DNA of 64,000 nucleotides from Actinomucor elegans. Taxonomy: Eukaryota; Mucoromycota; Mucoromycetes; Mucorales; Mucoraceae. The stretch is taken from assembly GCA_026027325.1 (NCBI GenBank), contig JAMSLZ010000018.1, positions 1 through 64,000 on the forward strand. The letters are read 5' to 3'. Shown one piece after another: positions 2,762 to 43,559 of the stretch (positions are counted from its first letter, which is position 1; every line of letters begins with the position of its first letter). The notes below the pieces were generated by a model. That model did no database searches. It saw nothing but the letters and a program-made list of their open reading frames with translations, and was not told the DNA's origin. Both the position numbers and the translations under genes were made by a program.

Positions 2762-3162
2762 GAGCAACGTTAAAAATAAAAAAAAATAAAAATTAGTTTT
2801 TAAATTAAATAGTGTTTTTTGTAATTATATTTTTTTTGTTTAACACTTTTTTATTGTAATTTTTGAAAGTTTGGTAATTAACGTAAAAATAAGAAATTGC
2901 AATAATTATGCAAAACTTATAAAGATTAAACTTTTATATTACTTTTCAATACAATTAAACTTTTTTTTTTCATAATATTTCACACCAGATCGAAACCCTG
3001 TTGTGCGACAATTTTTTTCTTTTAAAATTGATTAAAAAGCACGCCGTAAGTTTTTTAGCAACTTACAACTTGATAAATAAAGAAAGCTATATAATTTTAA
3101 TTTAATAATATGAAAATAATTATAATATATATATTAATTATTAATGATATGTAATGTAGCTC
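2762..3162 (+). repeat. Left terminal direct repeat, family 1
   Basis: The 401-bp repeat runs from GAGCAACG to GTAGCTC and is nearly identical to 4798-5199 and to the solo copy 52674-53075. A TATATAA-like stretch follows it directly at about 3163, upstream of the transposase start. Confidence 0.9.
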
Positions 3163-3345
3163 TTATATAAAAATTGCTCTTTGTTTTTGATTCATAGTAT
3201 CAATTTTTATTTTTTTTTTGCCAAATGTTTGAATGTTTAATATTAAAATAATTATAATTATAATCATTTCTGTAACATTAATTCAAACTCAATTACTTTT
3301 TTCTAAAAAATTGAATTATTATATAAATAAAAATAAGAACATCTT

Positions 3346-4797
3346 ATGACAATTGAAATAGAGGAACTATTAGAAAATGAATATGAAGAGATTAAAACAA
3401 ATTATTGGAAATTTTTAGATAATACATATAAATCTAATATTGAAAAACAATATCATAGAAGTAAAATAGGAAATTTTATTAACATTCAAAATATAAAAAA
3501 AGAATTATATGAACTATTAGGTGCAATTCCTATATTTGTATTTTTAACAGAAATTTGTAGTAAAATTAAAATGCCATCACCAGTATATAATGTAGAAAAA
3601 GGAATTTTGATTTTAAAATTATTAGTAGATGGTTGTTCCATTAATGATATGAAAATTTATGATGAGAATGATTCTTTTTATAGAATTTATAAATCTGTTT
3701 TTATTGATAATATAGATTTTTTAGAAAATTGGGTTAATAATACGATGTTTTATTGTTTTAGCAACAGCATTACTAGATTATTATATAGTAAATTATACAA
3801 TCCTAAAAATTTTGAACATTGTACATTACTTTTAGATGGAAGACATAATAGAATAGTAATTGAAGATATTGATTTAAATAAAAAAGATTTATATTCTTAT
3901 AAATTAAAGAAAAATGCATTAAACACCCAATTTATTATAGATTCAGCAGGATATATCATCTATGTTTCAGAATCATTACCGTGTAAATTTAATAATGACG
4001 ATAATATGTTTATTAATAATATAAATTTAATGAAATTTTTTAAACTAACAGATTGTTTATGCTATGATGGATTGTATGAAAATGTATTAGATGAAATTTT
4101 AAAAAAATATAATAATGTAGGATTACATATTACAGAAAATAACTTTTGTTTTCCAATAAAAAAAGAAAAAAATATTGATTTAGATGTTGATGAATTAAAT
4201 TTTAATAAACAATTAGGATCATATAGAAGTACCATTGAAACTTTTTTTGCAAAATTTTCAAATATATTCAAAAGATTTAGCTACAAAGCCAATGCAAGAA
4301 TTACAAAAGAAAAAACATATAACATTCAGATTAAATTAGCATTAGTTTTATTTAATATCAAAAACTTTGTAGAAAATAATAATATAGAAGAAAAATCTTA
4401 TTATAAACTATGGATGGAAAAAGATTTTGATTTTTTTGATACTATTAAGGATTTTAATATCGAAACTAAATCAATAAAGGCGGTATATAAAAAAGAAAAT
4501 ATAATGAATATGAAAAGTTTACAGGATGATCTTCTAAATAAACTTTTATCTGATAATAATTTTAAAATCAGCTTAACTAAAAATAAAATGCAAATTGATA
4601 ATGATGATAATAATACTAGTACTGATAAAAATGTATATGAGATACAATATATAATACAACATAGAAAAATAAATAATGAATATGAATATGAGGTAAAATG
4701 GAGAAATTATAAAAAACAAGTAAACAGTTGGATTAAAGAAAGTGACTTTCAAACAAAAGATATTCTAAAGAATTATTGGGATTCTATCAATGTCTAA
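3346..4797 (+). CDS. Harbinger/IS5-like DDE transposase with C-terminal chromodomain (family 1)
   Basis: This 483-aa protein has an N-terminal helical region, including a possible helix-turn-helix near residues 95-130. The nuclease core has a plausible triad: D164 in LLLDGRHNR, D241 in CYDGLYEN and E298 in RSTIETFF. This is the pattern of the DDE_Tnp_4 (PIF/Harbinger, IS5-like) group. Residues about 429-480 form a chromodomain (YEIQYIIQHRK, YEVKWRNY, then YW near the end), expected to bind methylated histone tails and steer integration. Homologues lie at 20084-21521 and 31742-33178. The frame is uninterrupted, so it may be functional. Its stop codon (4795-4797) abuts the right terminal repeat exactly. 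Family assignment is by motif, not search. Confidence 0.85.
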   Translation: MTIEIEELLENEYEEIKTNYWKFLDNTYKSNIEKQYHRSKIGNFINIQNIKKELYELLGAIPIFVFLTEICSKIKMPSPVYNVEKGILILKLLVDGCSINDMKIYDENDSFYRIYKSVFIDNIDFLENWVNNTMFYCFSNSITRLLYSKLYNPKNFEHCTLLLDGRHNRIVIEDIDLNKKDLYSYKLKKNALNTQFIIDSAGYIIYVSESLPCKFNNDDNMFINNINLMKFFKLTDCLCYDGLYENVLDEILKKYNNVGLHITENNFCFPIKKEKNIDLDVDELNFNKQLGSYRSTIETFFAKFSNIFKRFSYKANARITKEKTYNIQIKLALVLFNIKNFVENNNIEEKSYYKLWMEKDFDFFDTIKDFNIETKSIKAVYKKENIMNMKSLQDDLLNKLLSDNNFKISLTKNKMQIDNDDNNTSTDKNVYEIQYIIQHRKINNEYEYEVKWRNYKKQVNSWIKESDFQTKDILKNYWDSINV

Positions 4798-5199
4798 GAG
4801 CAACGTTAAAAATAAAAAAAAATAAAAATTAGTTTTTAAATTAAATAGTGTTTTTTGTAATTATATTTTTTTTTGTTTAACACTTTTTTATTGTAATTTT
4901 TGAAAGTTTGGTAATTAACGTAAAAATAAGAAATTGCAATAATTATGCAAAACTTATAAAGATTAAACTTTTATATTACTTTTCAATACAATTAAACTTT
5001 TTTTTTTCATAATATTTCACACCAGATCGAAACCCTGTTGTGCGACAATTTTTTTCTTTTAAAATTGATTAAAAAGCACGCCGTAAGTTTTTTAGCAACT
5101 TACAACTTGATAAATAAAGAAAGCTATATAATTTTAATTTAATAATATGAAAATAATTATAATATATATATTAATTATTAATGATATGTAATGTAGCTC
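4798..5199 (+). repeat. Right terminal direct repeat, family 1
   Basis: The 402-bp copy is in the same orientation as the left one. It begins one base after the transposase stop codon and would supply its 3' UTR and transcription end. Confidence 0.9.
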
Positions 5200-5322
5200 A
5201 TTGATTTCCATATATATCTTTTAACCGACGTTACAAAGCTGTCAAAGCGCAAGCTGAGTATAAGCATTGTCGAACGTTGACCTGATTGGAGACGGAAACT
5301 GAACAAGTCATGTTTACAACAC
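5200..5322 (-). repeat. F-type LTR fragment
   Basis: It matches the end of the minus-oriented LTR at 23739-24101, ending GTTTACAACA. Its other part lies just left of the family 1 element. From 5323 to about 5445 I see nothing recognisable. Confidence 0.75.
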
Positions 5323-7312: not shown

Positions 7313-8256
7313 AAGAGATGCACTCTTCTTGAACTCCTAATGCGAGCACAAGTGAATAACTATTAGCCACAATCCAACAAGTAAAAATACAACTTCGAAA
7401 CAAAAGTTTGTATGAACCAATTGAAGTCAAGTTGAATAAACTATAACCAAGGTGTAGTCGATTTTTTTCTATGTTTTCCTATATTTTTACCACAGTAACA
7501 TCAATGAATTCATCGCCCCTGTACAAAACTTGTCGATATTTTTCAGTCCTTCATTACCAGGTTAGTGTTCTGTTAATTCTAAATAGGCTACTAACGCATT
7601 GGTACACCGTCATATGTATACTATCCAATTCCTCGGCCCCCAAGCAAACCCATGGGTAGCGTTTTCTACCAACAATGTAGTAATGCTTCTGTTGTCGTAT
7701 TCCATGATTAGTTTTTTTTTTTAATAATCCAAGCAATGTTATCTTCAGATAAGGTGTTTCTTCTGCCGGTTGCCTTATTACTACTACCAACGTCGTTTGT
7801 AGCATTCATCCTTCAATCCGAGCCATGGTGCTACCAAAAGTAAGCTTTTGCCATTTTGCAGGTCCAACTCTTCAAGGCTAATCAAAATACGCGATTTTAA
7901 TTTAATAAGCATGTTATATTTTAGGCCAATATTTTTGAGAAACATTTTAATTCACAAGACTTTTTTACAAAATAAAAAAAGAAAAAAATGTTAAAAGTAT
8001 ATTATTTAATACAATTAATACTATTTTCATAAATACAAGTATATAACCTTCAGTCACAATTCAACGAGTATAAATACAAGCTAGAAGAACTAGTTAGAAA
8101 GAATTAATAAATTTAAGTTGAATGAACTATAACCAAGTTATAATCGACTTACTACCTGCTTTTATCTTAATTTTATCGCACGACTTATCTTCGGTGATAG
8201 ATAGTTTATGGAGGTTAGTTGCACTAGGCATTGATTTACATATATATCTTTTAACC
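7307..8256. repeat. Segmental duplication, copy 2
   Basis: It is closely similar to 1844-2761, with the same order of LTR remnants and the same decayed minus-strand frame near 7554-7805. It lacks the family 1 DDE insertion and instead carries a B-type LTR at its right end. Two copies within 6 kb fit unequal exchange between subtelomeres. Confidence 0.75.
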
Positions 8257-10382: not shown

Positions 10383-10960
10383 TAGGGTATCCCTAATCTT
10401 AACCCTAGCCCTAGCCCTGAAGGTAGACCCCTTAGCCTTTGTGGTGTAGTCAGCTCTCTCTTAGCCCTAGGTTTTATTGACCAAAGGTATCCCTAGCGTA
10501 AACCCTAGGGTTAGCCCTAGCCCTAGCCCGGGTATTACCCCTTAGCCTTTGTAGTGTAGTCAGCTCTCTCTTAGCCCTAGGTTTTATTGACCAAAGGTAT
10601 CCCTAGCGTAAACCCTAGGGTTAGCCCTAGCCCTAGCCCGGGTATTACCCCTTAGCCTTTGTGGTGTAGTCAGCTCTCTCTTAGCCCTAGGTTTTATTGA
10701 CCAAAGGTATCCCTAGCGTAAACCCTAGGGTTAGCCCTAGCCCTAGCCCGGGTATTACCCCTTAGCCTTTGTGGTGTAGTCAGCTCTCTCTTAGCCCTAG
10801 GTTTTATTGACCAAAGGTATCCCTAGCGTAAACCCTAGGGTTAGCCCTAGCCCTAGCCCGGGTATTACCCTTTCGCATGTGGTGTGATTAGCTCTTTCAG
10901 CCTACCAGTGTTATAAACCTGAGGTATGCCTTGTGCAAACCCTAGCCCTAGCTCTCAGGG
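10383..10960 (+). repeat. Telomere-associated tandem repeat, 110-bp unit
   Basis: Units start at about 10421, 10531, 10641 and 10751 at a spacing of exactly 110 bp, each with GGTATTACCCC and an inner CCCTAGCCCTAGCCC telomere variant. A single 98-bp-type unit follows at 10861. The copies are nearly identical, so the array is recently homogenised. Confidence 0.92.
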
Positions 10961-11160
10961 TACTACCCTAACCCTGACCTGTCTGTTACTCTAATCCTGA
11001 TTCCTAACCTTAATTTCTCCTAATCATAATTCTAATTCTTATTCCCATCCTTATCTCTAGTCTTAATTCTAAGTTGTGTCAAATTCTGCTCCTATCCTCT
11101 CTTCAATCCTAATTCTATTTCTAATTCTAATCCATTTTTTTCTAACATTATTTTCTTTTT

Positions 11161-12470: not shown

Positions 12471-12976
12471 TGTTGTAAAGGTGGTAGATAAAGATTTTGG
12501 AAGATAGAAATACTTTTAAAACTGTGGATAGTTTTTTATTAGAGATCAAGAATTGATTAACTGGTCAAAAGGTGATAAAACGCATCTCTTATATACTTTT
12601 TCTCGGTCGGTACTTGATTCTAAATTCATATTACGATTTGCCAGGAACAAGGTTGGACTGCGTATAAAGAAGACCAGGGATAATAACCAAATGAGCGGAC
12701 CAAGATTAGCGGCGAGGAGTGTCGGGATCAATATATCCAAAGGTAATAGTATTGAATGTAATATTTGGTGTGAGAGATAGTATTTATCAATTAGCGTCTA
12801 CTTGCTCAGAGTGATATATAAATAAAGATATTTTAACATAATCAAATACAGTCATTTACATTCTGGTTCTTGGTAATAATGCTTTATACACTTCTGCAGC
12901 TATATATAAGGATATCTATACGATTTTCTATCTGTACAGTATTCTCTTATTAATATAATTATGAGCGTTTACAACA
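12471..12976 (-). repeat. 3' LTR of chromovirus D
   Basis: On the sense strand it begins TGTTGTAAACGC and ends TTTACAACA. Short open frames on it are repeated in the other LTR and are not genes. Confidence 0.95.
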
Positions 12977-13159
12977 TTATCCTCCACCAGAATCAAACAA
13001 ACTTGTATTGATTCGGCAAGTGCGTCAGTTCCACCAAATAGTACATTCATGCGGCTGAGTTTTGATTAACACGCTCAGGTATACCTCCTTTTACGCACCA
13101 ATTCAGGGTCTTTTCTTGCATCGTGGCTTTTCTTGGTTCTTGTTTCATAACTTGCCTAC

Positions 13160-16100
13160 TTATTCTATCTTTCTTTTCTTGTTTGAACGTCTATTCAGTA
13201 TTCTCTCTTCTCTACTCGTAGTGGCTGCAATATTTGCTCTTTTGTTTTTCGACATCTCGATCGCTACATTTGACATCTCATTCCCATTGCATTTAGGAAT
13301 CTTGGAAGTTCCAACTTTTTTGCGTCTGTTAGGTTCAGAGTTTTGAATTGACTGTTCGACTCTAGTTTGCTCTAAACGTCGTAATTCTCTTTGCTTATTC
13401 CAGTACCGTTGAATGATAGTTGGATCGGTGAAATCACTTGCTTTTTGCCAAGTATTTTCTTTCTCAGAATAACCTTTCCACTTAATCAAGTATTCTCGAT
13501 GACCTTCTTCACCTCGATGATCACGGATACCTTCGACTTCGTAGTATTCTTCTTCGATACTAGACTCATCCAGGGTAACTACTTTCAATTCCGACGGTAC
13601 ATAGTTTCGGGATAATAATTCATTCTGTTCATCCTTTAGTTCATACGATCCACCAGTATTTCTTCGAACAACAGTGTAAGGTCCCTCATAAATCGGAGCT
13701 AACTTACTAGATCGATTCTGTAATCTGATCATGACATGCGTTCCAACTGGAATGTCGACAAGAACACTCTTTTGATTGAACTTTTTGTTATATTCCTCAT
13801 TTATCTTCTGAGTTCTTTCGAGGATGGCTGGGAATACGATCTTATCCATGTAATCTACGCGTTCTTCCAACTCTCGCATGGTCATAGACTCAATGGGTAG
13901 TTTGAACTTCTTCTCGTTCCCGTAGTCATCAGGTAAGTTGACTCTACGTGCAAACATCAAGGAGAAGGGAGAACTCATAGTTTTTGCTTTAATGTGTCGG
14001 TTCATGCAGAGCTGTATGATAGGAAGATAATACGCCCAACTATGACTGTCTGACTTCATCATTTTTCTTAACGTGTTAGTTGCGGTACGAACTGCATTTT
14101 CCGCTGCTCCATTTGCTCGAGGATGATATGGCGTAGTGTATCTTCTATCAATTCCTAGGTTCTTCGAAATACTGTTCATCACAGCATTCTTGAACTCTAG
14201 ACCATTATCAGACTGGCAAATACGTGGAACACCAAAATCACCATAGACTTTGACCAACTCTTTTGCAACAGTATCGGATTGTTTGTTCTTCAGAGGTCTG
14301 AGAATAACGAATTTCGAACAAATATCTGTTATAACCAACATGTAAACATATCCTTCTTCAGTTACGTCAAAAGGTCCAGCCAAGTCGATAGCAATATGAT
14401 CAAATGGTCGGTTGGCTACAACATTAGATAATGGGTGATAACCTCTCTTACTGATGTTGTGCTTTTGACATTCAACACACGAACTAACAATGTCTTTTGC
14501 TTCTGCGTAGATATTCGCCCAATGGAGACCTTGTGAATGTAAATCTCGCACAATTGCTTGCGATCCAAAGTGTCCAAATGCATGCGCTTCTTTCAACAGA
14601 GCATCTCTCTCTTCTTCAGGAGGAGTCATATAGTCAGTCAGCTCATCTTTTCTTTCAACTAGTTTAGTCGCGAGTACGTTAATCGTTTTATCTCGGCTAA
14701 ATCGCTTTTTTCTAATGATGGCTTTCTTTTTAGGGCTTCGTCTGATGATTTTGCTCGTAACACTATCCTCCACCAGTTTGTTTTCATCTTCTAAAGGTGA
14801 ATACAAACGGCTCAGAATATCAGGCAATTTGTTCAATATACCGGGGATGTGCACTACATCAAAATCAAAATCCAGAAGAGTCTCGATCCATCCAATTAAC
14901 ATGGGATTTGCGATCTTTTGCGTATGTAAGTATACTAGTGCCTTGTGATCTGTAAATACAGTGAACTTTTTGCCCCATATATACTTGCGAAACTTCAGTA
15001 ATGCTAACACGACTGCATACAATTCTCTTTTAGTAGTGCTCCAACGGCGTTGTGAAGGTGACAAGGAGCTCGATACAAATCCTATGTAAAGATCTTGGCC
15101 GGCCTCATTCTTTTGAAACAACACTGCCGCGACACCATAAAGTGATGCGTCTGTAGCTACGTAAAACTGTTTTGACAAATCCGGATAATGCAGCATCATC
15201 TTCGACTGCAAAATCTCTTTGATAGTTTCAAAGCTCTTAGTGTGACGATCGGTCCACAGCTCTTCCACATTCTCTGCATTCACTAAACTGGTGAGTGGTT
15301 CTGCTACTCTGGAAATCATCGGAACGAATTCTCTCAGGTAATTGACCAAACCCATAAATTGCTGGATGTGTTTCTTATTTTTATTTGGAAGTGGCCACTT
15401 TGAAACATTGGTAAGTTTTGATTGATCCACACGAACTCCTGAAGCGTCCACTACAAATCCCAACATACGAACTGAATGTTGAAACCATGAACACTTGGAT
15501 TCTTTCAGGATTAAATTTGCGGAATTTAATCTGTCAATCACAAACTTTACATCTTTTGCATGCTGTTCGATACTTTCACTGGCAACAATACAGTCATCCA
15601 CGAAGTTCTGAACGCAATCAATACCTTCAAACAAGGTTGCCATGACCTTTTGAAATTGCGAGGTTAGCATTTTCACTCCAAAGCACGCTTTTTGAAAGGA
15701 AAAGCCATTGCCATTATAAGTAAACGATAACTTGTGTACATCCTCGGGTGCCACTTTGAATCGATGATATGCATTCGACAAATCCAAAGTTGTAAACACT
15801 TTTTTACCGGCCAAGTTATCAAAGATATCCTTAACCAAAGGTACGGGAAAATTGAATGTTGGAGGTAGAATTTGATTCAACGATCTCACATCTAAACACG
15901 CTCTATGGCTCACAATCTCACCATCTTTGTTACGTTTAGGAACAAGCAGTAATGGACTGTTGAATGACGTGTTTACTCGGGATCGAATGATTGTACCTGT
16001 TTCCAACCATTCTTTTATTTGCTTATCGAGAACTGGTCTTAATGCATAAGGGATGGGGTATTGACGTCTATACGCCGTTGCACCCTCTTTCGTAGGTAAT

Positions 16101-18085
16101 CGAACAATGGATTCAGGCAAAGGACATGAAGATGTTATGGGTATGCTCTGATTAATCTCTAGTGATTCTTTAATTATACTCATGAACTCTGCTCTTTGCT
16201 CAGGCGTACCAGCAGGCGAATTGTCAGGTTCATGTTTTCTTTCACGTTCAATGTTCAAGTTTTCAAAAATAGCTTCATCACTCAAGGCAGCGTCAGAATG
16301 TGCATGATCATCTTTGATGCGAAAAGCCACTCCAGTTAATCCGATATTCATTTTGGGAAGAATATCTGTGCCAAGAAGAATATCAAACTCGAATCCGTCG
16401 TTAAAGTTCATTACTTCAAATGAGTGTTTGAACTTAATGCCATTTGCATACTTTATTTCCAAAGGATCGGTGATACCAATTCTCTTTGCAGTATTTTGAT
16501 GAGACAAGAAATTATAAGAACCAGGTAATTTATGTACTTTATTTATATGAAGTTTATTCTTCAAAGAAGACAAACTAACAAAGCTACAACTACTTCCTGT
16601 ATCTACGCGTCCCAGGAGACGTTCAGACTCTACAATCAACGGTGTACATAAATTAAATGCGTCATTAGCCTTTAATTTGTCACTCTTCTTGTTCTCATTC
16701 AGGTACTTACATTGATAGCTCTGATTCTCAATCTCGGAGTCGGCCATCTCCAAGTCCTCTTGAACTTGCTGCTCAATTGACTTCTCACTCGAGGAAGCCG
16801 CAGGCATCACAGCCAAGACAGTACTGCTACTACTGCTTTCAGCAGCACCACAACGATGACCAGGACGCCATGGAGACACACCACAAGTCCAACACTCTTT
16901 ACCCTTCGCCTTCTTCACAGAAGGAGGGCGTTCAGCTCTTCTCTTAGCGAGAAAACAATCCTTGGTGTCATGGGTCGCATTGTTACCATGATGGATGCAC
17001 GAAAAGGGTTTCGCCACCTTACTCGCCTTTTGCACCCGACGAGCTGCATTCTTGTGATGATGGTGATAGGGGGCCTTTTCTTTGCGTCGCTCAACAACAG
17101 GCGCACCAGGAAGAAGAGAAACAGCCTCATTATACGACGTATGGTCGTCACCAAGAATATCACGACCAATCTGTGCGATTTGATCGACAGTGTATTCAGC
17201 ATTCTCACCAGAAGATCCAGCCTTCACTGAATTCATTGCAACTCTGATCAGCGTCTGAACAGGTTTAGTCAGCGAGGCCAAAAAACGATCAGCTACTCTA
17301 GGACACTCTCTAGGTAGGCCTGCATCAAACATTGCTGTTTGAAAACGCTTAGCATAGTCGCCCACCGACTCATTGTTTTCCATTACCATGGTAAACACAA
17401 GGTCAGTATATCTTCTCAACACAAGGGAAGAACCGTGCTGCTTCTTAAACTCTCTACGAGCATCTGCCCATAGGGTACAACCTCTACTCAGCTCATCTTT
17501 CACCCATGCTTTATCGCCATGGGGAAGGCAAAGGGGTAAGAAGTTCTTCCACACCTCATCAATGGACATGGAAGAAGACTCAACTACATCCTCAAATTCT
17601 CTCAAAAAATGCTCAACAGACTCGAAGGCTTCGTAACCTGGAAAAGGTTTGACAGCCGAGGTCAAGAGTTGGAACTTGGGCAAGTCGCGACGATTCAATG
17701 TCAAACCAGTAGGTGGCTTAACACGATCAACCTCACCGATCAATGAACTGCACTCTTGGATCTCACGGAGCATCCTCTTGGAGCGTTCAAGGGCCAACAA
17801 GGCTTCATCAGCCGCTACGTCATCTCTGACTACACGAGCACGACTAAACGCTTGAAGGTATCGGGTAATATCTGCACGGAGCCCGGCGATATTTGTGTCA
17901 ATCAGTTGTGGGTCAGTCATGTCAGCAACAGCATGCTCAGCCGACTCAGACAACAAAGAACTAGCACCAGGAGACTTGATAAACTCATCAAGGTTGCTTG
18001 ACAAGGTCGATTCATCAAACATGGGGGTGTCAGGGTTAACACCACAGTTGGCAGAAGAAGAACCAGAAACGTTGTTGGAAGCCAT
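13160..18085 (-). CDS. Gag-Pol polyprotein with chromodomain (chromovirus D)
   Basis: This 1641-aa single frame makes all proteins for copying and integration of the element. In order it has: Gag (about 1-480) with a CxxH..H..C motif and a knuckle CWTCGVSPWRPGHRC (C-x2-C-x8-H-x-C); protease active site DTGSS (about 495); reverse transcriptase with FVDD (about 827, an F for the usual Y); RNase H with TDAS (about 977) and TDHKAL; integrase with an HHCC finger (CVECQKH), IDLAGPF, SDNGLEF and NGAAEN; and a chromodomain (about 1517-1568, YYEVEGIRDH, EYLIKWKGY). The tail is basic. Gag and Pol share one frame with no frameshift. The first ATG after the 5' LTR leader (MASNNVSGSS) is used as the start. 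No break is seen. Confidence 0.95.
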   Translation of the reverse strand: MASNNVSGSSSANCGVNPDTPMFDESTLSSNLDEFIKSPGASSLLSESAEHAVADMTDPQLIDTNIAGLRADITRYLQAFSRARVVRDDVAADEALLALERSKRMLREIQECSSLIGEVDRVKPPTGLTLNRRDLPKFQLLTSAVKPFPGYEAFESVEHFLREFEDVVESSSMSIDEVWKNFLPLCLPHGDKAWVKDELSRGCTLWADARREFKKQHGSSLVLRRYTDLVFTMVMENNESVGDYAKRFQTAMFDAGLPRECPRVADRFLASLTKPVQTLIRVAMNSVKAGSSGENAEYTVDQIAQIGRDILGDDHTSYNEAVSLLPGAPVVERRKEKAPYHHHHKNAARRVQKASKVAKPFSCIHHGNNATHDTKDCFLAKRRAERPPSVKKAKGKECWTCGVSPWRPGHRCGAAESSSSSTVLAVMPAASSSEKSIEQQVQEDLEMADSEIENQSYQCKYLNENKKSDKLKANDAFNLCTPLIVESERLLGRVDTGSSCSFVSLSSLKNKLHINKVHKLPGSYNFLSHQNTAKRIGITDPLEIKYANGIKFKHSFEVMNFNDGFEFDILLGTDILPKMNIGLTGVAFRIKDDHAHSDAALSDEAIFENLNIERERKHEPDNSPAGTPEQRAEFMSIIKESLEINQSIPITSSCPLPESIVRLPTKEGATAYRRQYPIPYALRPVLDKQIKEWLETGTIIRSRVNTSFNSPLLLVPKRNKDGEIVSHRACLDVRSLNQILPPTFNFPVPLVKDIFDNLAGKKVFTTLDLSNAYHRFKVAPEDVHKLSFTYNGNGFSFQKACFGVKMLTSQFQKVMATLFEGIDCVQNFVDDCIVASESIEQHAKDVKFVIDRLNSANLILKESKCSWFQHSVRMLGFVVDASGVRVDQSKLTNVSKWPLPNKNKKHIQQFMGLVNYLREFVPMISRVAEPLTSLVNAENVEELWTDRHTKSFETIKEILQSKMMLHYPDLSKQFYVATDASLYGVAAVLFQKNEAGQDLYIGFVSSSLSPSQRRWSTTKRELYAVVLALLKFRKYIWGKKFTVFTDHKALVYLHTQKIANPMLIGWIETLLDFDFDVVHIPGILNKLPDILSRLYSPLEDENKLVEDSVTSKIIRRSPKKKAIIRKKRFSRDKTINVLATKLVERKDELTDYMTPPEEERDALLKEAHAFGHFGSQAIVRDLHSQGLHWANIYAEAKDIVSSCVECQKHNISKRGYHPLSNVVANRPFDHIAIDLAGPFDVTEEGYVYMLVITDICSKFVILRPLKNKQSDTVAKELVKVYGDFGVPRICQSDNGLEFKNAVMNSISKNLGIDRRYTTPYHPRANGAAENAVRTATNTLRKMMKSDSHSWAYYLPIIQLCMNRHIKAKTMSSPFSLMFARRVNLPDDYGNEKKFKLPIESMTMRELEERVDYMDKIVFPAILERTQKINEEYNKKFNQKSVLVDIPVGTHVMIRLQNRSSKLAPIYEGPYTVVRRNTGGSYELKDEQNELLSRNYVPSELKVVTLDESSIEEEYYEVEGIRDHRGEEGHREYLIKWKGYSEKENTWQKASDFTDPTIIQRYWNKQRELRRLEQTRVEQSIQNSEPNRRKKVGTSKIPKCNGNEMSNVAIEMSKNKRANIAATTSREERILNRRSNKKRKIE

Positions 18086-18130
18086 ATCGATAAAAGTAAG
18101 GAAAATAGGACAGTAATTAAAAGTAAAAAA

Positions 18131-18636
18131 TGTTGTAAAGGTGGTAGATAAAGATTTTGGAAGATAGAAATACTTTTAAAACTGTGGATAGTTTTTTATT
18201 AGAGATCAAGAATTGATTAACTGGTCAAAAGGTGATAAAACGCATCTCTTATATACTTTTTCTCGGTCGGTACTTGATTCTAAATTCATATTACGATTTG
18301 CCAGGAACAAGGTTGGACTGCGTATAAAGAAGACCAGGGATAATAACCAAATGAGCGGACCAAGATTAGCGGCGAGGAGTGTCGGGATCAATATATCCAA
18401 AGGTAATAGTATTGAATGTAATATTTGGTGTGAGAGATAGTATTTATCAATTAGCGTCTACTTGCTCAGAGTGATATATAAATAAAGATATTTTAACATA
18501 ATCAAATACAGTCATTTACATTCTGGTTCTTGGTAATAATGCTTTATACACTTCTGCAGCTATATATAAGGATATCTATACGATTTTCTATCTGTACAGT
18601 ATTCTCTTATTAATATAATTATGAGCGTTTACAACA
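18131..18636 (-). repeat. 5' LTR of chromovirus D
   Basis: It has the same length and apparently the same sequence as 12471-12976. The Gag start lies 45 bp downstream on the minus strand. Confidence 0.95.
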
Positions 18637-19655: not shown

Positions 19656-21904
19656 GAAGAACAATTCAAATTAAAAGATGTATCTATTATTTTTTTTTTA
19701 TTTTTTTCACTTCTAATTTTATATATTAATATAATTATAATTATACTTCGGATTTAAAATACCCCTAGTTTCGTACCAGCCACATATGTACGAGAACCTT
19801 TCTCTAAGAGAAAGAACCATAAAGAGTCGCGGTGCAAGTTTTTTTGCAACTTACACCTTAAAAACTAATACAAAATTAAAAAAATATATACAATAATGGA
19901 GTTTAATGGATTCTCTTATAAAATATTTAGTAATCTTAGACTAGTTTACAGAAATAAATAAAAAATAATTAAACGCCAAGACATTTAAAATTTTTTAATT
20001 TTATTTCTTTTTTTTATATGAATAAAGCATTTTAATATAACATAATTATTTAATAAAAACTGAATATATTTATATAATAAAATATGGATACTTTAATAGA
20101 ACAAGAGTATAGAAAAATATATGCAAAACATTGGTTATTTATGCGAAATGAATATATATATAATTTAGAAACTAAATTTCATAGAAAAAAAATAGAAAAT
20201 GTAAAAAATATTAAAAAGGTTAAAGAAAACATATATAATAAATTAGGAGATATATCTGTTTTTATATTTTTAACGGAAATATGTAGTAATATAAAAATGC
20301 CAGGTCCTTATTTTATGATTGAAAAAGGTTTATTAATATTACAATATTTATTAACAGGTTTTACTCATAGAGAAATGGAAATTTATATTCCAGAATCATC
20401 TTTTTTTAAGATTTATGAAAGTTTATTTATTAAAAATTATGACTTTTTAGAAAAATGGTTAAATGAAAAAATGAAATTTTGTTTTAGTACTCCTTTATTG
20501 AGATTGTTATGTTCTAAAAAAACAAACCCTAGTGCAATTGATAACATAACATTAATGTTAGATGGGCATCATAATAGAATAATATATCAAGATATTCATT
20601 TAGATAAAAAAGAATTGTATTCTTGGAAATTAAAAAATAACGAATTAAATACACAATTCATTATAGATATAAATCGAATTTGTGTATACATTTCAGAATC
20701 ATTACCTTGTAAACAAAATACTGATGATAATATGTTTTTAGATATAAACCCAGATTCATTTTATTATGAAACAGATTGTATTGCTTTCGATGGTTTATAT
20801 GAAAACAGTGTAAATGAATATATAGAAAAGTATAAAGCAATTGGGTATAATATATCATTATATAATTTTTGCTATCCAATAAAAAAAGACAAAAACATTC
20901 TATTAACAAAAGATGAAAAAGATTTTAATGATATGTTAGGTGGATTAAGATCTAAAATAGAAACATATTTTGCTGAGTTAGGTAATATTTTTCATAGATT
21001 TAATGGTAAAACAAAGGTTAGAATTACTGATAACAAAATTTATAATATACAACTAAAATTAGCAACTGTTTTGTTAAATATTAAATATTTTAACGAATTG
21101 TTTCCAATTAATAATATTAATCATTACGGTAAATGGAGAATGGAAAACTTCGAATATATTTTTAAAAATGAAAAAAAACTATAATTATGAAGATTTAACT
21201 TTAAAAACACAATATAAAATAGAAAAAATAAATACTATTAAAGATTTACAAAATCAATTTTTAAATAATTTAAATATTAATACTTATGATAATACGACGG
21301 AAGATATATCAATGGAAATTAATGAAGATATCGCCAATAAAAAAATAGAAAAGGTTTATGAAGTTCAATATATAATAACACATAAAAAAGTATTAGATGA
21401 ATATGAATTTCTTGTAAAATGGAAAAATTATAAAAAGGATCAAAATTCTTGGGTTAAAGAACATGACTTTATTGATAAAGAAATAATAAAAAAATATTGG
21501 AAATCCGTTAAAAGAACATAAATAAATATGAATATTATAAAAAATAAAAATTAAAAAATAAATCCATTGGATTATTTTTATTTTTAACTTTTTTATAATC
21601 AAGAATTGAATAAAAATAAACATTTGTGTTTTTAAAATTAACGAAGAAGAACAATTCAAATTAAAAGATGTATCTATTATTTTTTTTTATTTTTTTCACT
21701 TCTAATTTTATATATTAATATAATTATAATTATACTTCGGATTTAAAATACCCCTAGTTTCGTACCAGCCACATATGTACGAGAACCTTTCTCTAAGAGA
21801 AAGAACCATAAAGAGTCGCGGTGCAAGTTTTTTTGCAACTTACACCTTAAAAACTAATACAAAATTAAAAAAATATATACAATAATGGAGTTTAATGGAT
21901 TCTC
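19656..21904 (+). mobile_element. LTR-like DDE-chromodomain element, family 2
   Basis: The 2249-bp element has direct repeats at 19656-19915 and 21646-21904 that differ by one T. The ends are GAAGAACAA and GGATTCTC, with ATT flanking both sides. The empty site is the GACTATTGTATG of intact A-type LTRs, for example at 24784. The terminal repeats share no obvious sequence with family 1 beyond the end motif, yet the gene is homologous and placed the same way. Confidence 0.85.
20084..21521 (+). pseudogene. Harbinger-like DDE transposase with chromodomain, frameshifted (family 2)
   Basis: The first frame (20084-21184) carries the catalytic core with LMLDGHHNR, AFDGLYEN and RSKIETYF, so all three acidic residues are present. 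The second frame (21168-21521) carries TLKTQYKIEKI and the chromodomain (YEVQYIITHKK, FLVKWKNY, KYWKS). The break falls in a run of eight A near 21170-21177; family 3 reads straight through the equivalent place. It may be a mutation, an assembly error or a real slippage site. The start matches the shared N-terminus of families 1 and 3. The spacing to the right repeat is 124 bp. Confidence 0.8.
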
Positions 21905-22640: not shown

Positions 22641-23738
22641 ACTAAGGAGTCAATGAAAATAAGGAAAAGCACGCATATACTTACTTTTGCGCTTCTGTAC
22701 TGAGGTCGTTTACGAATCAGCACTTGTTGGCCTTCCATGTCTACATCGCTTTCCTCTTCAGACATCATTCCAGCAACCAAAAAGACTGGGAACTGTTTAC
22801 CATATTCTTTTTCGAAATGCTCTTTGTTCTGAGAGTACATATCTACTCTATGGCCCAATTTCTATACCAACAAAAGATGAATAACCTCAACATTACTATC
22901 ACTGCTACTTTACCAATTGAGTACGGGAATTGCACCTGTTTCTTTTGGCATAGGCTTCGCTAACGGAATCAATAACAACTTCATCGTCTTCTCCCAGATC
23001 CTTAGCTTTTTTATGCAACCTCGACATATACCAATAAAGCGGTCAGTGATAATCTGTTTCATTGCCCTGGCTGAAATATGGTGTGTTTGGCGATTGTTCT
23101 CACCATAGGTTCTCATTTTTGTTCGAACATCTTTGTTCGGAGGATAGGATAATGATACCTTAAAATCATACTTTTGCGACAAAGTTCCGTAGTAAGAGGT
23201 AAGCAAATCCTAGTATCATTAAAATGTTATTTAGAAACTTATTAACCTGCTTTTTTTTCAACATATAACTTTACGCGAAAGAGACGATCTATCTTTTGGC
23301 TTTGTTTTCTTGAAGAAATATCAACAGTTTGGCCATTCCTCGCTTTACCGTAAGTATTAGAAGTAGAAACAGAGTACTCCTCTTCTGTTGAACTGGAACC
23401 ATTATGAAGAACATTTAGTATTACAGAAATATGTTCAAAATAGTACAATATATAAAAAAATTAGGAAATAATAGATTTTTTTGAATACAAATAATAATAT
23501 AAATAAATTTTATTCTAAAATAGAACAAGTAACCAACATTTTATTTATGGATAAAAAGGCAACATTATATTTATGCCTTGATTTTTTAGGAAAGTTAAAA
23601 ATATTAAGTAGTTGTAAATGCTTATCTATGATCGGCTAGATATTGCTGGATTAGATGCTTAACATCACACGTTGGAAATAATTGGTTGATTAAGTCAGCA
23701 GAAGAAGGTTTAAATACTATATCTTCATCAACACTATT
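22625..23738 (-). pseudogene. Broken copy of a multicopy gene of unknown function
   Basis: Minus-strand pieces run from about 23738 (matching 60590-60700), through 23448-23242 (NGSSSTEEEYS, NTYGKARNGQTVD), 23206-22910 (LSQKYDFKVSLSYPP, RQTHHISARAMKQI) and 22858-22625 (YGKQFPVFLVAGMMSEEES, then basic RKRPQYRS). A related copy lies at 59879-60846. A 37-bp intron-like gap near 23196-23232 and frame changes separate the pieces. I do not recognise the family. The EEES-then-basic ending and several copies would fit either a mobile-element protein or a fungal multicopy family. A solo DDE-type repeat (23406-23626) splits it. Confidence 0.5.
23406..23626 (+). repeat. Solo terminal repeat, GA..TC family 3
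   Basis: The 221-bp repeat (GAAGAACATTT...GCTTATC) is in the reverse + orientation of the repeats bounding 31510-34013. TAT flanks both sides. The empty site is preserved at about 60690-60715, where the related gene copy reads across without interruption. Confidence 0.92.
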
Positions 23739-26445: not shown

Positions 26446-27344
26446 CCATTTTCACGTTCTTTGCCTTTCTTGGACGGTCGACCCTTCTCTTGTTCAGAAA
26501 ATGAGGTGTTACCCTCAACACCTTCTTTTCTTTTCATTGCAAATATATTTACTTCGTTGTTATTATTTTTTTTTGTTTTCTTTGTGTTTTTACTATTGTT
26601 TGGAGGTGTTACTTGAATCATATTCAAGTTCTGCCTATTATTTTGGGATTGGGGAATGGGAATTGTATTGTTAAGGACACCAGTATTTCCCTCGTTTACT
26701 GGCGTCCGTTCTCTTTTCCCACACTGTTATTATTACCAATGTTATTACTTGACCCACTACTGTTTACACCACGGTCGCTAACACCATTCATCGCTGCTTC
26801 ATTGCTGCTTTTACCACTATTTGAACAATAACGACTAGGATGGCCTTCTTGTCCACAGTTCCAACATTGCATTGGTCTTCCACCATATGGGGGACGATTA
26901 AAAGAATAACTACTATTACCGGCACCCGATTGCTGTTGCTGTTTTTGCAGGTTAGTCATCTGCTGTTGCTGTTGCACCATATTAATGTTTAACAAATTCA
27001 CTGCTTCGATTAAGCTTGCCAATGAATCGACCGAAAGACGTTCGTCGTTTGAACCAGTAGTAGTACGAGCAGATGCAACACTTCCACTTTGACCATTGAC
27101 ATTATCCTGTGTTATTTCAAAAGTAACTCGTTTATCAGTGGCATGTTTCATAAAACCGTTACCATGAAGCTTATATTTCTTTTGCAGTTTCCCGATCTCC
27201 ATAGCTTCTTCTGTCACTGAATCATAGGTTCTTGTATTACCAGTAGACTTTGCACCCCGTTCCAATTCGTAAGCAATGGATTCGTTAACAGAGGCAATAA
27301 AGAAGGACATTTTGGATTCATCATCAGTGAGATTCACCACCTTG
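26446..27344 (-). pseudogene. C-terminal Gag and gag-pol junction of element C
   Basis: Gag continues with LFKVVNLTDDESKM, a Q-rich stretch and one CCHC knuckle (CWNCGQEGHPSRYC), and ends at a stop at 26696-26698. The overlapping pol frame opens through TPVNEGNTGV and a basic region (KKTKKNNNNE) into 26139. Its N-terminal part is at 29440-29794, separated by a Merlin insertion. Knuckle, slippery heptamer and stop are in the classical retroviral order. Confidence 0.85.
26714..26720 (-). promoter_or_regulatory. Canonical -1 ribosomal frameshift heptamer (gag-pol, element C)
   Basis: On the minus strand the sequence is G GGA AAA, in phase with the gag codons GTG-GGA-AAA. Slipping back one base leads into AGA-GAA-CGG-ACG, the open pol frame. 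The gag stop is 15 bases downstream. This fits the X-XXY-YYZ rule exactly. Confidence 0.8.
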
Positions 27345-27482
27345 AATAGACGGATGTATCCCAAAGGAACTCTCAGGTCCATATTGAAACTCCTACTACC
27401 ACAAATTTTATTGTTATATGAAAAAATTGAATTTTTTTTACAAATTAAAATTAAAAATAAAAAGGATTTAATAAAATTGCAG

Positions 27483-28354
27483 ATGTTTATAGAACCATAT
27501 AAATCTTTAAAAAAAATATTCGACGATGAAAAAGAAGCACTATTATATTTAATTAGTAATGATTACGTTAATAAACATATAAAGTGTAATAAATGTGAAC
27601 ATGAAACTAAATTAAACTTAAATAAAAAATTATATGTTTGTAGATATTATAAATGTAGGAAAGCAATATCACCATTGAAAGGAACAATTTTTAATAATTT
27701 AACTTTACCTTTAAATACTCAATTACACATATTATATCTTTTTCTTGGAAAAGCACCTTCTTCCTTTATAGCATCAAGTTTGCAAATTAGCAAAAATACA
27801 GTGTCATCATACAATAAAATATTCAGAAAATACTTGAAAAATAAACAATTGTTAGGTAACAGAAATATTAAAATTGGAGGTAGAAATAAAATTGTAGAAA
27901 TCGATGAAAGTAAAATTGCAAAAAGAAAATATAATAAGGGGCATAAGGTAGAAGGTGCTTGGGTAATTGGTGGTATCGAAAGAAGTATGCTAAAAAATAA
28001 AATAAAAAATGAAAACAAAAAATGTTTTTATTACCCATTGAAGAAAGAAATGTTGATAATATTGATTTAATTATAAAAAGATATGTAAAAAAAGGTACAA
28101 CAATATATACGGATTTATGGAAAGGGTATAATAACTTGAAAAATATAGGATACAAACATTTAACTGTAAATCATTCAAAGCATTTTAAAGATCCAAATAC
28201 AGGTGTGCATACAAATACAATTGAAGGCACATGGAATGGCTTAAAGCAAAGTATAATACCACGAAATAGAAATAAAAAAGATATAGTATTGTATTTAAAA
28301 GAATATCAATGGCGTAAGAAAAATAGAGAGTATAACGTATGGAAAAAGTTTTAA
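27483..28354 (+). pseudogene. Merlin/ISXO2-like transposase, frameshifted
   Basis: It has an N-terminal zinc ribbon (CNKCEHETK then CRYYKCRKA), a helix-turn-helix (SSLQISKNTVSSYNK) and an ISXO2-type DDE core: D in VEIDESKIAKRK, D in TTIYTDLWKGY and E in HTNTIEGTWNG. The frame changes near 28026-28030 in a T-run: the first frame ends at 28070 and the second (28022-28354) carries the last two catalytic residues. All three are present, so it is one mutation from intact, or uses slippage. Start 27483 is the first ATG clear of the terminal repeat; an in-frame ATG at 27354 lies inside it. Confidence 0.85.
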
Positions 28355-31506: not shown

Positions 31507-31741
31507 AAAGATAAACATTTACAACTACTTAATATTTTTAACTTTCCTAAAAAATCAAGGCATAAATATAATGTTGCCTTTTTATCCATAAATAAAATGT
31601 TGGTTACTTGTTCTATTTTAGAATAAAATTTATTTATATTATTATTTGTATTCAAAAAAATCTATTATTTCCTAATTTTTTTATATATTGTACTATTTTG
31701 AACATATTTCTGTAATACTAAATGTTCTTCTTATTAATTGA

Positions 31742-33178
31742 TTAATTATTTTCTATTGATTTCCAATAATTCAAAATAGTATCATGTGATGTAAAATCTT
31801 TTTCTTTTACCCATGAATTATGTTCTTTACCATACTTTTTCCATTTTACAAAATATTCATATAAGTTCTTTACTTTTTTGTGTTTAATTATATATTGTAT
31901 TTCATATATATTTTGATCATTATTACTAGTGATATCTTCCTCCATTTGATCCATAATATCTATATTCACTTCATTTATATTTAAATTATTTAAAAATTGA
32001 TTTTGTAATGATTTTATATCAACGATATTTTCTATTTTATATTGTGTTTTTAATGTTACTTCTTTATTCATTTCAATATTATTTTTATAATAATAATCAA
32101 AATTATCATTTAGCCATTTGTTGTAATGGGCATTTTCTTCAATTCCAAATAACTCTGTAAAATATTTTATGTTCAGTAATACTATTGCTAATTTTAGCTG
32201 TATATTATATGTCTTATTATCTGTTATTCTAATCTTATTTTGTCCACTAAATCTTTTAAAAATACTACCTAATTCTGCAAAATATTTTTCTATTTTTGAC
32301 CTTAATCCACCTAATTCTTCATTGAATTTTTTTTCATCTATGGTTAATTCAACTCCTTTATCTTTTTTTATAGGATAGCAAAAATTTTTCAAGGATATAT
32401 TAAATCCAATATTACTAAATTTTTCTATAAATTCTTTTACTGTGTTTTCATATAATCCATCAAAACATATACAATCTATTTCATTATAAAACTTATTGAT
32501 ATTTATGTCTAAAAGCATTTTATCATCAGTATTATTTCTACAAGGTAAGGAATCAGATATATAAACACATATTCTATTAATATCTATAATAAATTGTGTA
32601 TTTAATCCATTTCTTTTTAATTTATACGAGAATAACTCTTTTTTATCTAGATTAATATCTTGATATGTTATACGATTATGGTGACCATCAATTAGTAATG
32701 TTACATTATCTAACATCATTGGATTAAATTTCTTAGCACAAAGTAATCTCAATGTATGTGTAGAAAAACATTTTTCTAATTTATTATTTATCCATTTTTC
32801 CAATAAATCATAATTATTTATATATAATGATTGATATAATTTATAAAAACTAGTAGATGGAATATACATTTCCATTTCATTTATAGATTTTCCATTTAAT
32901 AAATGTTCTAATAATATCAATACTTTATCTGCTGTTATATATGGACCTGGTAGTTTTATATTGTTACATAAATCTGTCAAAAATACAAATGGAGCAATAC
33001 TTCCTAATTTAATATATATATTTTTTTTAATTCTATCAATATTTGGTATACTCGTTATTTTAGATCTATGATATTTCAATTCAACTTTATATATATATTC
33101 ATTTTTCATAAATTTCCAATACCTATTGTAAATATTTCTGTATTCATTTTCAATTAATAAGTCTATATGAGTGTTCAT
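31742..33178 (-). CDS. Harbinger/IS5-like DDE transposase with chromodomain (family 3)
   Basis: This 478-aa protein is intact and closely related to the family 1 and 2 proteins. The catalytic residues are in LLIDGHHNR, CFDGLYENT and RSKIEKYFAEL. The chromodomain (YEIQYIIKHKK, YFVKWKKY, NYWKS) is at the C-terminus. The start at 33178 (MNTHIDLLIENEY) is chosen because it aligns with the starts of the other two families; an upstream ATG at 33220 would add 14 residues. The stop is 11 bp from the terminal repeat. It would cut and join element ends; host activity is untested. Confidence 0.88.
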   Translation of the reverse strand: MNTHIDLLIENEYRNIYNRYWKFMKNEYIYKVELKYHRSKITSIPNIDRIKKNIYIKLGSIAPFVFLTDLCNNIKLPGPYITADKVLILLEHLLNGKSINEMEMYIPSTSFYKLYQSLYINNYDLLEKWINNKLEKCFSTHTLRLLCAKKFNPMMLDNVTLLIDGHHNRITYQDINLDKKELFSYKLKRNGLNTQFIIDINRICVYISDSLPCRNNTDDKMLLDININKFYNEIDCICFDGLYENTVKEFIEKFSNIGFNISLKNFCYPIKKDKGVELTIDEKKFNEELGGLRSKIEKYFAELGSIFKRFSGQNKIRITDNKTYNIQLKLAIVLLNIKYFTELFGIEENAHYNKWLNDNFDYYYKNNIEMNKEVTLKTQYKIENIVDIKSLQNQFLNNLNINEVNIDIMDQMEEDITSNNDQNIYEIQYIIKHKKVKNLYEYFVKWKKYGKEHNSWVKEKDFTSHDTILNYWKSIENN

Positions 33179-33268
33179 AAACAAATAAAATGATGTATTT
33201 TTATATAAAGAGAAATTCAATTTTTAATATTTTCTATATTTAATAAACTTTTATTTATATATGAAAAT

Positions 33269-33637
33269 TCAATTTTTAATATTTTCTATATTTTCCAAGA
33301 ACTTATGATTTCTTTTTGCATAATCTAACCATGATTTAAAATTATAAATTTCTTTAATACTAACATATCCTTTTCTTAAACACCAGGATTTGAAATATTC
33401 ATTTCTAACTTTTTCGTTATCATCTAAAATTGTTTTTATCACTAAATTGGCATGGATATTTGTATTGTTTTCACCAACATCATAGAAAGGACCACTATAT
33501 AAAATTTTATCAATATTTTTTATATTTCCAACCCATTGCAGTATTTTCTTGTTTAATATTTCGGATGATTTATTCTTGACATCTTTTTTTTCAGGATTTA
33601 GAGTTAAAACCACAGCATAATAATAGATTTTTTCCAT
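33269..33637 (-). CDS. Second protein of family 3 element, weak HUH/Rep-like pattern
   Basis: The 122-aa frame from MEKIYYYAVVLTLNP has an order of features like a small HUH-type replication initiator domain: a hydrophobic strand ending in LTLNPE, then NIHANLVIKT where HUH proteins have H-x-H, then WLDYAKRN where they have a tyrosine and lysine. The first histidine is N and the Y-K spacing is short, so an active HUH site is not shown. It lies just upstream of and parallel to the transposase, inside the terminal repeats. Two-gene layouts are known in Harbinger elements, where the second is a Myb-like protein; this does not look Myb-like. Unknown function is the safe call. Confidence 0.4.
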   Translation of the reverse strand: MEKIYYYAVVLTLNPEKKDVKNKSSEILNKKILQWVGNIKNIDKILYSGPFYDVGENNTNIHANLVIKTILDDNEKVRNEYFKSWCLRKGYVSIKEIYNFKSWLDYAKRNHKFLENIENIKN

Positions 33638-34016
33638 TAAATATAATATTGATGTTATTTTAAAAATAATTCTCAAATATTATAGATACTTTTATATTTT
33701 CCAAAATATCATGCCAAGAATTAGATGCCAAGGAAGTTGTTTTTAGATTTCTCAATGTGATTAAACGCAATGGAAGTCTAAAAATAGGACAAGATAAACA
33801 TTTACAACTACTTAATATTTTTAACTTTCCTAAAAAATCAAGGCATAAATATAATGTTGCCTTTTTATCCATAAATAAAATGTTGGTTACTTGTTCTATT
33901 TTAGAATAAAATTTATTTATATTATTATTTGTATTCAAAAAAATCTATTATTTCCTAATTTTTTTATATATTGTACTATTTTGAACATATTTCTGTAATA
34001 CTAAATGTTCTTCAAA

Positions 34017-36758: not shown

Positions 36759-37028
36759 ATATAACATTCTATATTATATTAAAAAGACGGGATTCATTTA
36801 ATAACTATCCATCAAAAGAGGGAGTTTTGAATCACCGCTGAAAATACAATTAATGAAGAATGAACATAGATTAAAAAGACCTTTGATTGTTACTAAGAGA
36901 CCATTTCTTTGGAAGTATAAATACAAGAGATACAAGCTAGATAGAAAAACTTAACTCACTTTGAATCAATAAAACCCCATAAAACGGTTCTAACTGATTC
37001 ACTCGCTTTTTATTCAATTTTTACCGCA
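36759..37028 (+). repeat. 5' LTR of chromovirus E, main part
   Basis: The first 18 bases of this LTR are at 34435-34452, left of the family 4 element. It carries TATAAATACAAG and AATAAAACC signals. The leader after it begins with seven T and shows no TGG primer site. Confidence 0.9.
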
Positions 37029-37060
37029 TTTTTTTCAGTTATACCTATAAAAATCTTACT

Positions 37061-42723: not shown

Positions 42724-42950
42724 AAACACGAAAGAAAAGGAATCTTGAATTTCCACTTTCCTAAAAAAACAAAAAAATTAACTACGTCACTTGGCAGCTG
42801 AAATCAACTCACAGAAACAAAAACAAAAAACAAAAAAAAATCTGGGGAAGTTTGAAGCGCTATTGATTGTATTTTTACAAAACATATATATAATAACTTA
42901 CTACTCATTACTAAGTCGATTCAGTGTGCACTGACTCTAGTGGGGGAGCA

Positions 42951-43235
42951 TGTGGTGAAATCCACATATAACATTCTATATTATATTAAAAAGACGGGAT
43001 TCATTTAATAACTATCCATCAAAAGAGGGAGTTTTGAATCACCGCTGAAAATACAATTAATGAAGAATGAACATAGATTAAAAAGACCTTTGATTGTTAC
43101 TAAGAGACCATTTCTTTGGAAGTATAAATACAAGAGATACAAGCTAGATAGAAAAACTTAACTCACTTTGAATCAATAAAACCCCATAAAACGGTTCTAA
43201 CTGATTCACTCGCTTTTTATTCAATTTTTACCGCA
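42951..43235 (+). repeat. 3' LTR of chromovirus E
   Basis: The 285-bp LTR is uninterrupted, and so shows the empty site of the family 4 insertion (CCACATATAACATT). Bases 42724-42950 upstream are untranslated sequence ending in the polypurine tract. Confidence 0.93.
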
Positions 43236-43554: not shown

Positions 43555-43559
43555 ACCAG

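Follow-up and report, generated by a model that had tools for sequence, protein, structure and literature searches.

Composite-Like DNA Transposons of the IS5/PIF-Harbinger Type with Paired Direct Terminal Repeats in the Fungus Actinomucor elegans

Introduction

The elements considered here were found in a stretch of 64,000 nucleotides from the mucoralean fungus Actinomucor elegans (NCBI GenBank assembly GCA_026027325.1, contig JAMSLZ010000018.1, positions 1–64,000 of the forward strand; hereinafter, the window), and their closest described counterpart is KolobokP, known from seven animal phyla (Kojima & Bao 2022; PMC9587614). According to the sections of that paper considered here, KolobokP consists of two long terminal direct repeats (LTDRs) of about 450 or about 660 bp with inverted ends RR..YY, and of an internal region (INT) that carries the transposase gene. 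Solo LTDRs and multimers (LTDR-INT)n-LTDR flanked by target duplications are also reported there, and the authors regarded these elements as unlike any other DNA transposon.

Some other systems are similar in part. In pseudo-compound transposons of IS6/IS26, direct repeats of a true transposon flank cargo as a result of cointegrate formation, and a circle with one IS copy, the translocatable unit, was proposed in the portion of the article considered (PMC7986276). Coe1 of Beta vulgaris is presented in the corresponding part of its description as an En/Spm-type element of eight exons that contains a pseudogene for reverse transcriptase; beyond its long terminal repeats (LTRs), CACTATAA termini are hypothesised (PMC2426827). 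PIF/Harbinger, Pangu and the other groups of the IS5/PIF-Harbinger (PHIS) type have a DDE_Tnp_4-type D-D-E domain and 3-bp duplications, and a term search of the paper on them found no mention of direct repeat, chromo, composite or LTR (PMC4482050).

The element at positions 2762–5199 of the window, assigned to family A, belongs to a class of PHIS-type DNA transposons that are composite-like in structure, in which a KolobokP-like plan has apparently been built independently on an IS5/Harbinger-type transposase with a chromodomain, as a second case of this architecture. A preliminary description of the window had spoken of an undescribed lineage. This stands in so far as no description of a DDE_Tnp_4/chromodomain lineage with this plan was found among the listed open-licence papers of PubMed Central (PMC); it does not stand for the architecture itself, which is known from KolobokP (PMC9587614).

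The LTDR-INT-LTDR arrangement, inverted LTDR ends, solo repeats and multimers (one multimer only) are shared with KolobokP. In the sections considered, KolobokP has a Kolobok transposase with a C/DxxH signature, a His-Me homing endonuclease in the INT and 46 single-LTDR losses (40 + 6) in one family, and no chromodomain is mentioned, whereas the fungal elements have a DDE_Tnp_4 transposase with a chromodomain, shorter LTDRs (about 210–402 bp), no open reading frame (ORF) with a match to such an endonuclease and no loss of this kind at 54 loci. IS6/IS26 elements are bacterial and carry the transposase within the repeated IS, whereas here it lies in the cargo. Long direct repeats and a chromodomain also distinguish the fungal elements from the PHIS groups, and from PIF/Harbinger in particular, where the ends are a single pair of short inverted repeats; moreover, their duplications depart from the definitions given for these groups in the part of the source considered (PMC4482050). 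As for the bacterial elements, the position of the transposase gene is one of several differences. IS6/IS26 elements also produce 8-bp duplications and belong to a different transposase family.

Family A Element and Its Insertion Site

All parts of the family A element are on the plus strand. The 5' LTDR (2762–3162, 401 bp) has inverted ends GAGCAACGTT..AATGTAGCTC, the INT (3163–4797, 1635 bp) starts with the triplet TTA and ends with TAA, and the 3' LTDR (4798–5199) is 402 bp long, the sole difference between the two LTDRs being one base in a T-run. Only one sense ORF of at least 60 amino acids (aa) is present in the INT, namely the transposase gene (3346–4797, 483 aa), the stop codon of which directly adjoins the 3' LTDR; neither a gag nor a reverse transcriptase frame was found in this region. 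The triplet ATT is located on both sides of the element (2759–2761 and 5200–5202), and a diverged copy of the target sequence at approximately 8230–8256 contains a single ATT (8230–8232) and no element. This paralogous empty site indicates that the entire LTDR-INT-LTDR unit was inserted with a 3-bp duplication. Thus, the near-identical direct repeats around a single gene, the outer 3-bp duplication and the LTR-like repeats without reverse transcriptase, all claimed in the preliminary description, are borne out by the closer analysis. The same description had named, as a test, the alternative that the two repeats are independent insertions; the inner edges read TTA and TAA instead of ATT and do not vary among the A copies read, and the alternative fails.

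Two solo repeats of family A, both on the plus strand, occur in the window: one at 52674–53075, with the duplication ATA, and an older one (95%) at 1444–1843, with the duplication TCT.

Transposase

The A protein matches PF13359 (DDE_Tnp_4, 2e-9) and, in its C-terminal part, PF00385 (Chromo, 9e-6); the two matches exceed the Pfam cut-off and accord with the fusion read earlier from the sequence. Its residues D164, D241 and E298 are invariant across 42 aligned sequences. DDE_Tnp_4 also exceeds the cut-off in families B, C, F2, F8, F4 and F8b and falls below it in F1 (24.5 versus 24.8 bits); the E frame, which is truncated, likewise stays below it at 17.5 bits. The C/DxxH signature of Kolobok was found between the second D and the E in none of the 42 aligned sequences and in none of nine families of this genome, so that membership in Kolobok was rejected. 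Solved structures gave matches to the A transposase in its C-terminal part only, nearly all of them to chromodomains. In IMG/VR and GTDB, a search with peptide patterns derived from one A protein, which reaches close relatives only, found no contig that encodes a relative. Full-length transposase frames without interruption are present at 11 A loci and 26 B loci.

Families, Copies and Flanking Duplications

The genome searched comprises 36.5 Mb in 27 contigs. The Zn_clus domain (PF00172) was matched 39 times in it and gave a signal in none of 14 control genomes of unspecified kind, in keeping with a fungal origin. As the search scores only the best candidates (40 of 109 for the A repeat, 40 of 101 for the B repeat and 88 of 408 protein candidates, with 89 protein matches), all copy counts are lower bounds. 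Before counting, L028 (the same locus as L027) was removed. The solo count excludes C21:3591723, which is the 3' repeat belonging to a truncated copy, and the B count excludes F12 (C12:1439564), a disrupted copy with B-type repeats and a 5' start outside the sequence read. Two B-like loci (C22:698601 and C22:705707) remain outside the counts, as do the copies of F1, F2, F4 and F8 beyond the one or two that were read. Pairs of copies with the same flanks (C2:585 and C11:541134; L037 and L055) enter twice in the totals of matching duplications and once in the duplication composition (n = 74), which omits four extra B copies, the B solo, F4 and F8b.

The LTDR-INT-LTDR plan was found in eight families with checked ends (A, B, C, D, E, F1, F2 and F8). 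Three of them accompany family A in the window and correspond to the two further coding families and one noncoding element noticed previously, each with its own repeats, GA..TC termini and 3-bp duplications. The family B element (31510–34013, minus strand) has 221-bp LTDRs (31510–31730 and 33793–34013), the duplication AAA on the plus strand and a transposase open frame of 493 aa, measured stop to stop (31742–33223, minus strand), with DDE_Tnp_4 and Chromo domains; a solo B repeat with the duplication TAT lies at 23406–23626 on the plus strand. The family E element (19656–21904, plus strand; LTDRs 19656–19915 and 21646–21904) is flanked by ATT, and its transposase is broken across two frames of 367 and 147 aa. 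The noncoding element of family D (34453–36758, plus strand; LTDRs 34453–34662 and 36549–36758), flanked by ATA, was inserted into a Gypsy-repeat junction, an intact version of which serves as an empty site near position 42965. The window repeats of A, B, E and D show no mutual BLAST match.

Families G and H probably have the same plan: their direct repeats start with GACGG or GAGG, and their outer right ends lie outside the sequence read. Family G (L146, C3:186700–189700) has 16 similar loci, of which two were read and one was translated, giving, by eye, a transposase frame without its middle part. Family H (L148, C22:763900–767400) contains a transposase frame without a chromodomain, also judged by eye, and an accessory gene. 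The window D element has its repeat start and inner GTA edge in common with family G.

The genome-wide search with flanks, proposed as a check in the preliminary description, gave matching 3-bp duplications in 56 of 61 complete copies: 18/20 for A, 28/31 for B (23/26, plus 4/4 extra copies and a dimer), 4/4 for C, 2/2 for D (ATA in the window and AAG on contig C25) and 1/1 each for E, F1, F2 and F8, where one copy was read per family. Solo LTDRs have matching duplications in 25 of 26 cases, that is, A 23/24 (17/18 and 6/6), B 1/1 (in the window) and E 1/1 (on C9). Mismatched flanks were found in A copies L016 and L018, in B copies L034, L042 and L056 and in the solo C1:67836. The left flank of L016, located on C24, is the same as that of the window copy and its right flank is different, which suggests an exchange between chromosome ends inside the element. 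The dimer is a tandem B structure LTDR-INT-LTDR-INT-LTDR, located on C22 and bounded by AGT on either side. Family E is mostly solo: one complete element, that of the window, stands against nine full-length unpaired repeats elsewhere.

These data bear upon the reading in which two miniature inverted-repeat transposable elements (MITEs) happened to insert independently on either side of a transposase gene. Each repeat does resemble a MITE, and solo repeats are common; however, the same arrangement recurs at dozens of loci with common outer duplications and constant inner edges, and eight families whose ends were checked have it with repeats of different sequence. In view of the empty sites for A and D, this reading was rejected, and we consider it next to impossible.

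Half of the A transposase loci (10/20) and half of those of B (14/28) are situated within 50 kb of a contig end, the expectation being at most 7.4%. Such a bias would be consistent with the chromodomain guiding insertion into silent chromatin, or with copies being lost slowly there. The window itself begins with CCCTAA repeats and is the start of contig C10.

Ends of the LTDR and Target Preference

Each LTDR has its own inverted ends, with 6–10 of 10 positions matching in the eight families (the mean for random window segments is 2.8), and its termini are always GA..TC; the LTDR ends of A, B, C, E, F1 and F2 are similar to GAGNAACGTT. The composition of the duplications (n = 74) matches none of the six PHIS groups. 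TWA, expected for PIF/Harbinger, was found in only 3/74, TNA likewise in 3/74 and CWG in 1/74, while ANT, expected for Pangu, was found in 22/74, close to the marginal expectation of 26, so that the first A (42/74) and the last T (46/74) represent a bias only.

The edge triplets of the INT are inverted-complementary in four of the eight families (TTA/TAA in A and C, TAG/CTA in F1 and TAA/TTA in F2), and the spacer of F4 carries TTA..TAA too, as does the INT of A and C. With a chance of 0.023 each, this gives P of about 2e-5 on the assumption of independence, in a test picked after the data had been seen. Perhaps these triplets let the transposase distinguish inner ends from outer ones.

Comparison with Gypsy Retroelements

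Long direct terminal repeats and solo repeats are also characteristic of non-autonomous LTR retroelements of the TRIM/LARD type. Accordingly, the structures could have been non-autonomous LTR retroelements with a captured transposase gene, copied by Gypsy reverse transcriptase, with DDE_Tnp_4 acting as integrase or not. Reverse transcription can yield LTDR identity, solos and dimers, and the window also holds three Gypsy elements (G1–G3; 12471–18636, 36758–43235 and 43557–50063) in which the two LTRs are identical or almost so. But the ends of the LTDRs are GA..TC with inverted repeats of about 10 bp, while G1 and G3 have TGTTG..ACA ends, and the duplications are 3 bp long as against 5 bp for G1 and G3. 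Uninterrupted purines ahead of the 3' repeat reach a length of 2–5 in the eight families versus 6 and 9 in G1 and G3, where purine runs at this place are long; as to the number of purines just before the 3' repeat, C and E (9/12) equal G3 (9/12). The INT starts with TGG in one of the eight families (F8) and in none of the window Gypsy elements G1–G3, so a missing TGG primer site is no evidence against a retroelement. The differences in ends, duplication length and purine run, which hold against the TRIM/LARD type as well, led us to reject this explanation as very improbable, more so as the INT of A has neither gag nor reverse transcriptase. The last frames of the three Gypsy elements have, by eye, a chromodomain-like end.

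Relatives with Other Plans

Direct repeats are present in eight of the ten end-checked families of this transposase lineage. In the remaining two, F8b has inverted repeats and F4 has two unlike modules. The transposon F4 (C5:17843–20906 and C4:159291–163473; nine similar protein loci) was inserted on C5 into an E repeat as one unit with an ATT duplication. Its module 1 (1219 bp) has perfect inverted repeats of 202 bp around a 201-aa ORF and is followed by a 40-bp spacer, and module 2 has inverted repeats of about 207 bp enclosing the transposase. In the one copy of F8b that was read, the inverted repeats are 423 bp long, and their outer part of about 287 bp has its own inverted ends of about 70 bp; when the ends are read as GGAGG..CCTCC, TAT stands on both sides.

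In the transposase tree, constructed with a midpoint root and with long branches flagged by the program, a split with 100/98 support places the seven LTDR families included, without exception, on one side, and F4 and F8b, together with five database proteins, on the other. This split is compatible with a single origin of the LTDRs. Family H was not among the sequences placed; by eye, its transposase is nearer to the F4/F8b/F8 side, which could break the picture of a single origin.

Agreement Between the Two LTDRs of a Copy

Family A is divided into subfamilies A1 and A2, of 10 copies each, distinguished by four positions in the LTDR and four in the INT. In the 80 site-by-copy cells of the four LTDR sites, the 5' and 3' LTDRs agree in 79, the remaining one being a gap. 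The presence of the same subfamily allele in both LTDRs of each A copy indicates that the repeats are renewed jointly. Nineteen of 20 A copies are free of any substitution between their two LTDRs, and the exception, L029, has two next to an A-run; among B copies, the LTDRs are exactly equal in 21 of 26, one has a substitution and four have a 1-bp indel. As to substitutions, then, the likeness of repeats within copies that had been stressed earlier is confirmed, with indels in homopolymers as the exception to this rule.

Recurrent indels of 1 bp (or AT) were observed at columns 16, 70, 202 and 366 of the A LTDR alignment. Within-copy agreement at these four columns (55/80) equals that of permuted pairs (mean 53.6, P 0.43), and for this reason the indels are read as recurrent slippage or assembly noise, which they look like and between which the data here do not distinguish.

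Transposase matches gave 54 loci (21 A and 33 B), 51 of which, one being the dimer, have an LTDR on both sides. The remaining three (L049, C12:3682378 and C21:3592127) are cut within the INT. None of these 54 loci, whose relevant ends were read, shows a clean loss of one LTDR.

Possible Mechanism of Transposition

In our opinion, which is tentative and somewhat short of even confidence, the LTDR may be the true transposon, and circles with one LTDR may insert by cointegrate-type replication. The LTDR would then be the minimal transposon, and the INT with the transposase gene would be cargo. Homologous recombination between the LTDRs of a copy would release a one-LTDR circle and leave a solo LTDR; the DDE core of the transposase would bind the LTDR ends, with the chromodomain perhaps steering the complex to silent chromatin. 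The transposase would nick both 3' ends of the circle's single LTDR and join them to a new target at positions separated by 3 bp, and replication across the strands would duplicate the LTDR, as in the cointegrate proposed for IS6. The product would be a full LTDR-INT-LTDR, its two LTDRs newly made and identical, flanked by a new 3-bp duplication. This replicative model is put forward because each LTDR has inverted ends, the duplications are 3 bp long, substitutions are renewed jointly, single-LTDR loss is absent, a dimer exists, D-D-E is invariant and the repeats are direct rather than inverted. In addition, the ends of one LTDR are the closest pair of ends, yet LTDRs do not seem to be excised, which favours a route leaving the donor LTDR in place, such as a cointegrate.

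Nearly as plausible, in our estimation, is a composite transposon in which the outer ends move the whole LTDR-INT-LTDR by cut-and-paste, while gene conversion and unequal crossing-over homogenise the LTDRs and make solos and dimers. The duplications, empty sites, solos and dimer are consistent with it, and cut-and-paste is the chemistry expected of the PHIS group; F4 and F8b, with their other terminal units, make movement from an outer pair plausible. Such an enzyme should also cut at the inner ends, however, and the 54 loci with no clean single-LTDR loss speak against the cut-and-paste model on this point. Nor is there a substitution difference between the 5' and 3' LTDRs that is common to different loci, although few such differences exist.

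A number of points weigh against the replicative model. No circle, junction or reaction product was observed in the assembled sequence, and IS5/Harbinger enzymes work mainly by cut-and-paste. Unequal crossing-over with gene conversion could yield the solos, dimers and shared substitutions, and as few as one homogenising event could explain the A1/A2 split. The model leaves the inner triplets unaccounted for, and the count of 8/10 for direct repeats is partly circular, as the families were recognised by their direct repeats. Because substitution differences are few, the absence of inherited ones carries little power. The indels are of more concern: in the LTDR pairs of the 20 A copies, 33 indel cells in A/T runs differ, an A-run indel is common to six copies in the 5' LTDR only and to five in the 3' LTDR only, and a T-run indel is confined to the 5' LTDR in six copies. 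One-sided A indels are thus common to up to six copies, drawn from both subfamilies, and in B one run (repeat position about 54) is short in the 3' LTDRs of L034 and L039 and in the 5' LTDR of L044. If real and inherited, such indels oppose renewal at every move and fit the inheritance of both LTDRs under cut-and-paste, so that their one-sided sharing weakens the replicative model and strengthens its rival.

Accessory Protein

The second gene of the family B element (33272–33637, minus strand) encodes a 122-aa accessory protein conserved in B, G and H. It has 63 matches in the genome, including the 16 near-identical loci of family G, with 70% identity, and a relative with 42% identity beside the H-type transposase; other aligned relatives show 37–82% identity, and one database entry shows 99%. 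Positions invariant across 19 sequences include N60, H62, N64, W103, Y106 and N110. Pfam, PHROGs, NCBIfam and PDB gave noise only and no supported match; one of 13 members of the family matched a PHROG named homing endonuclease at the noise level (E 0.17). By eye, and with no library support, the layout with H-x-N and Y..N motifs recalls a HUH/Rep nuclease. One might speculate that the retrovirus-like body plan of the lineage evolved independently since its terminal repeat is the true transposon, that its spread proceeds through one-repeat circles which insert replicatively and that the 122-aa partner, in some families, could replicate the circle as a HUH/Rep-like protein; we consider this combined scenario unlikely.

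Other Features of the Window

At 54697–56605, an open frame of 561 aa, which we take to be Tc1/pogo-like, is located near perfectly complementary 164-bp arms (54697–54860 and 56426–56589). Transposase-like frames at 27273–28070 have sequence in common with a stretch upstream of F4 on C4, and both are presumably ISXO2-like. A 110-bp unit forms a tandem array at 10427–10976, near the chromosome end.

Conclusions

A second lineage with another transposase superfamily, probably in another kingdom, points to convergence on the paired-repeat plan, and the lack of a homing endonuclease here suggests that this enzyme is dispensable for the plan. Many near-identical copies in one small genome make the maintenance of two like repeats directly testable. 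For annotators, it follows that a unit flanked by LTR-like repeats, with 3-bp duplications and no reverse transcriptase, is not necessarily a dead retroelement.

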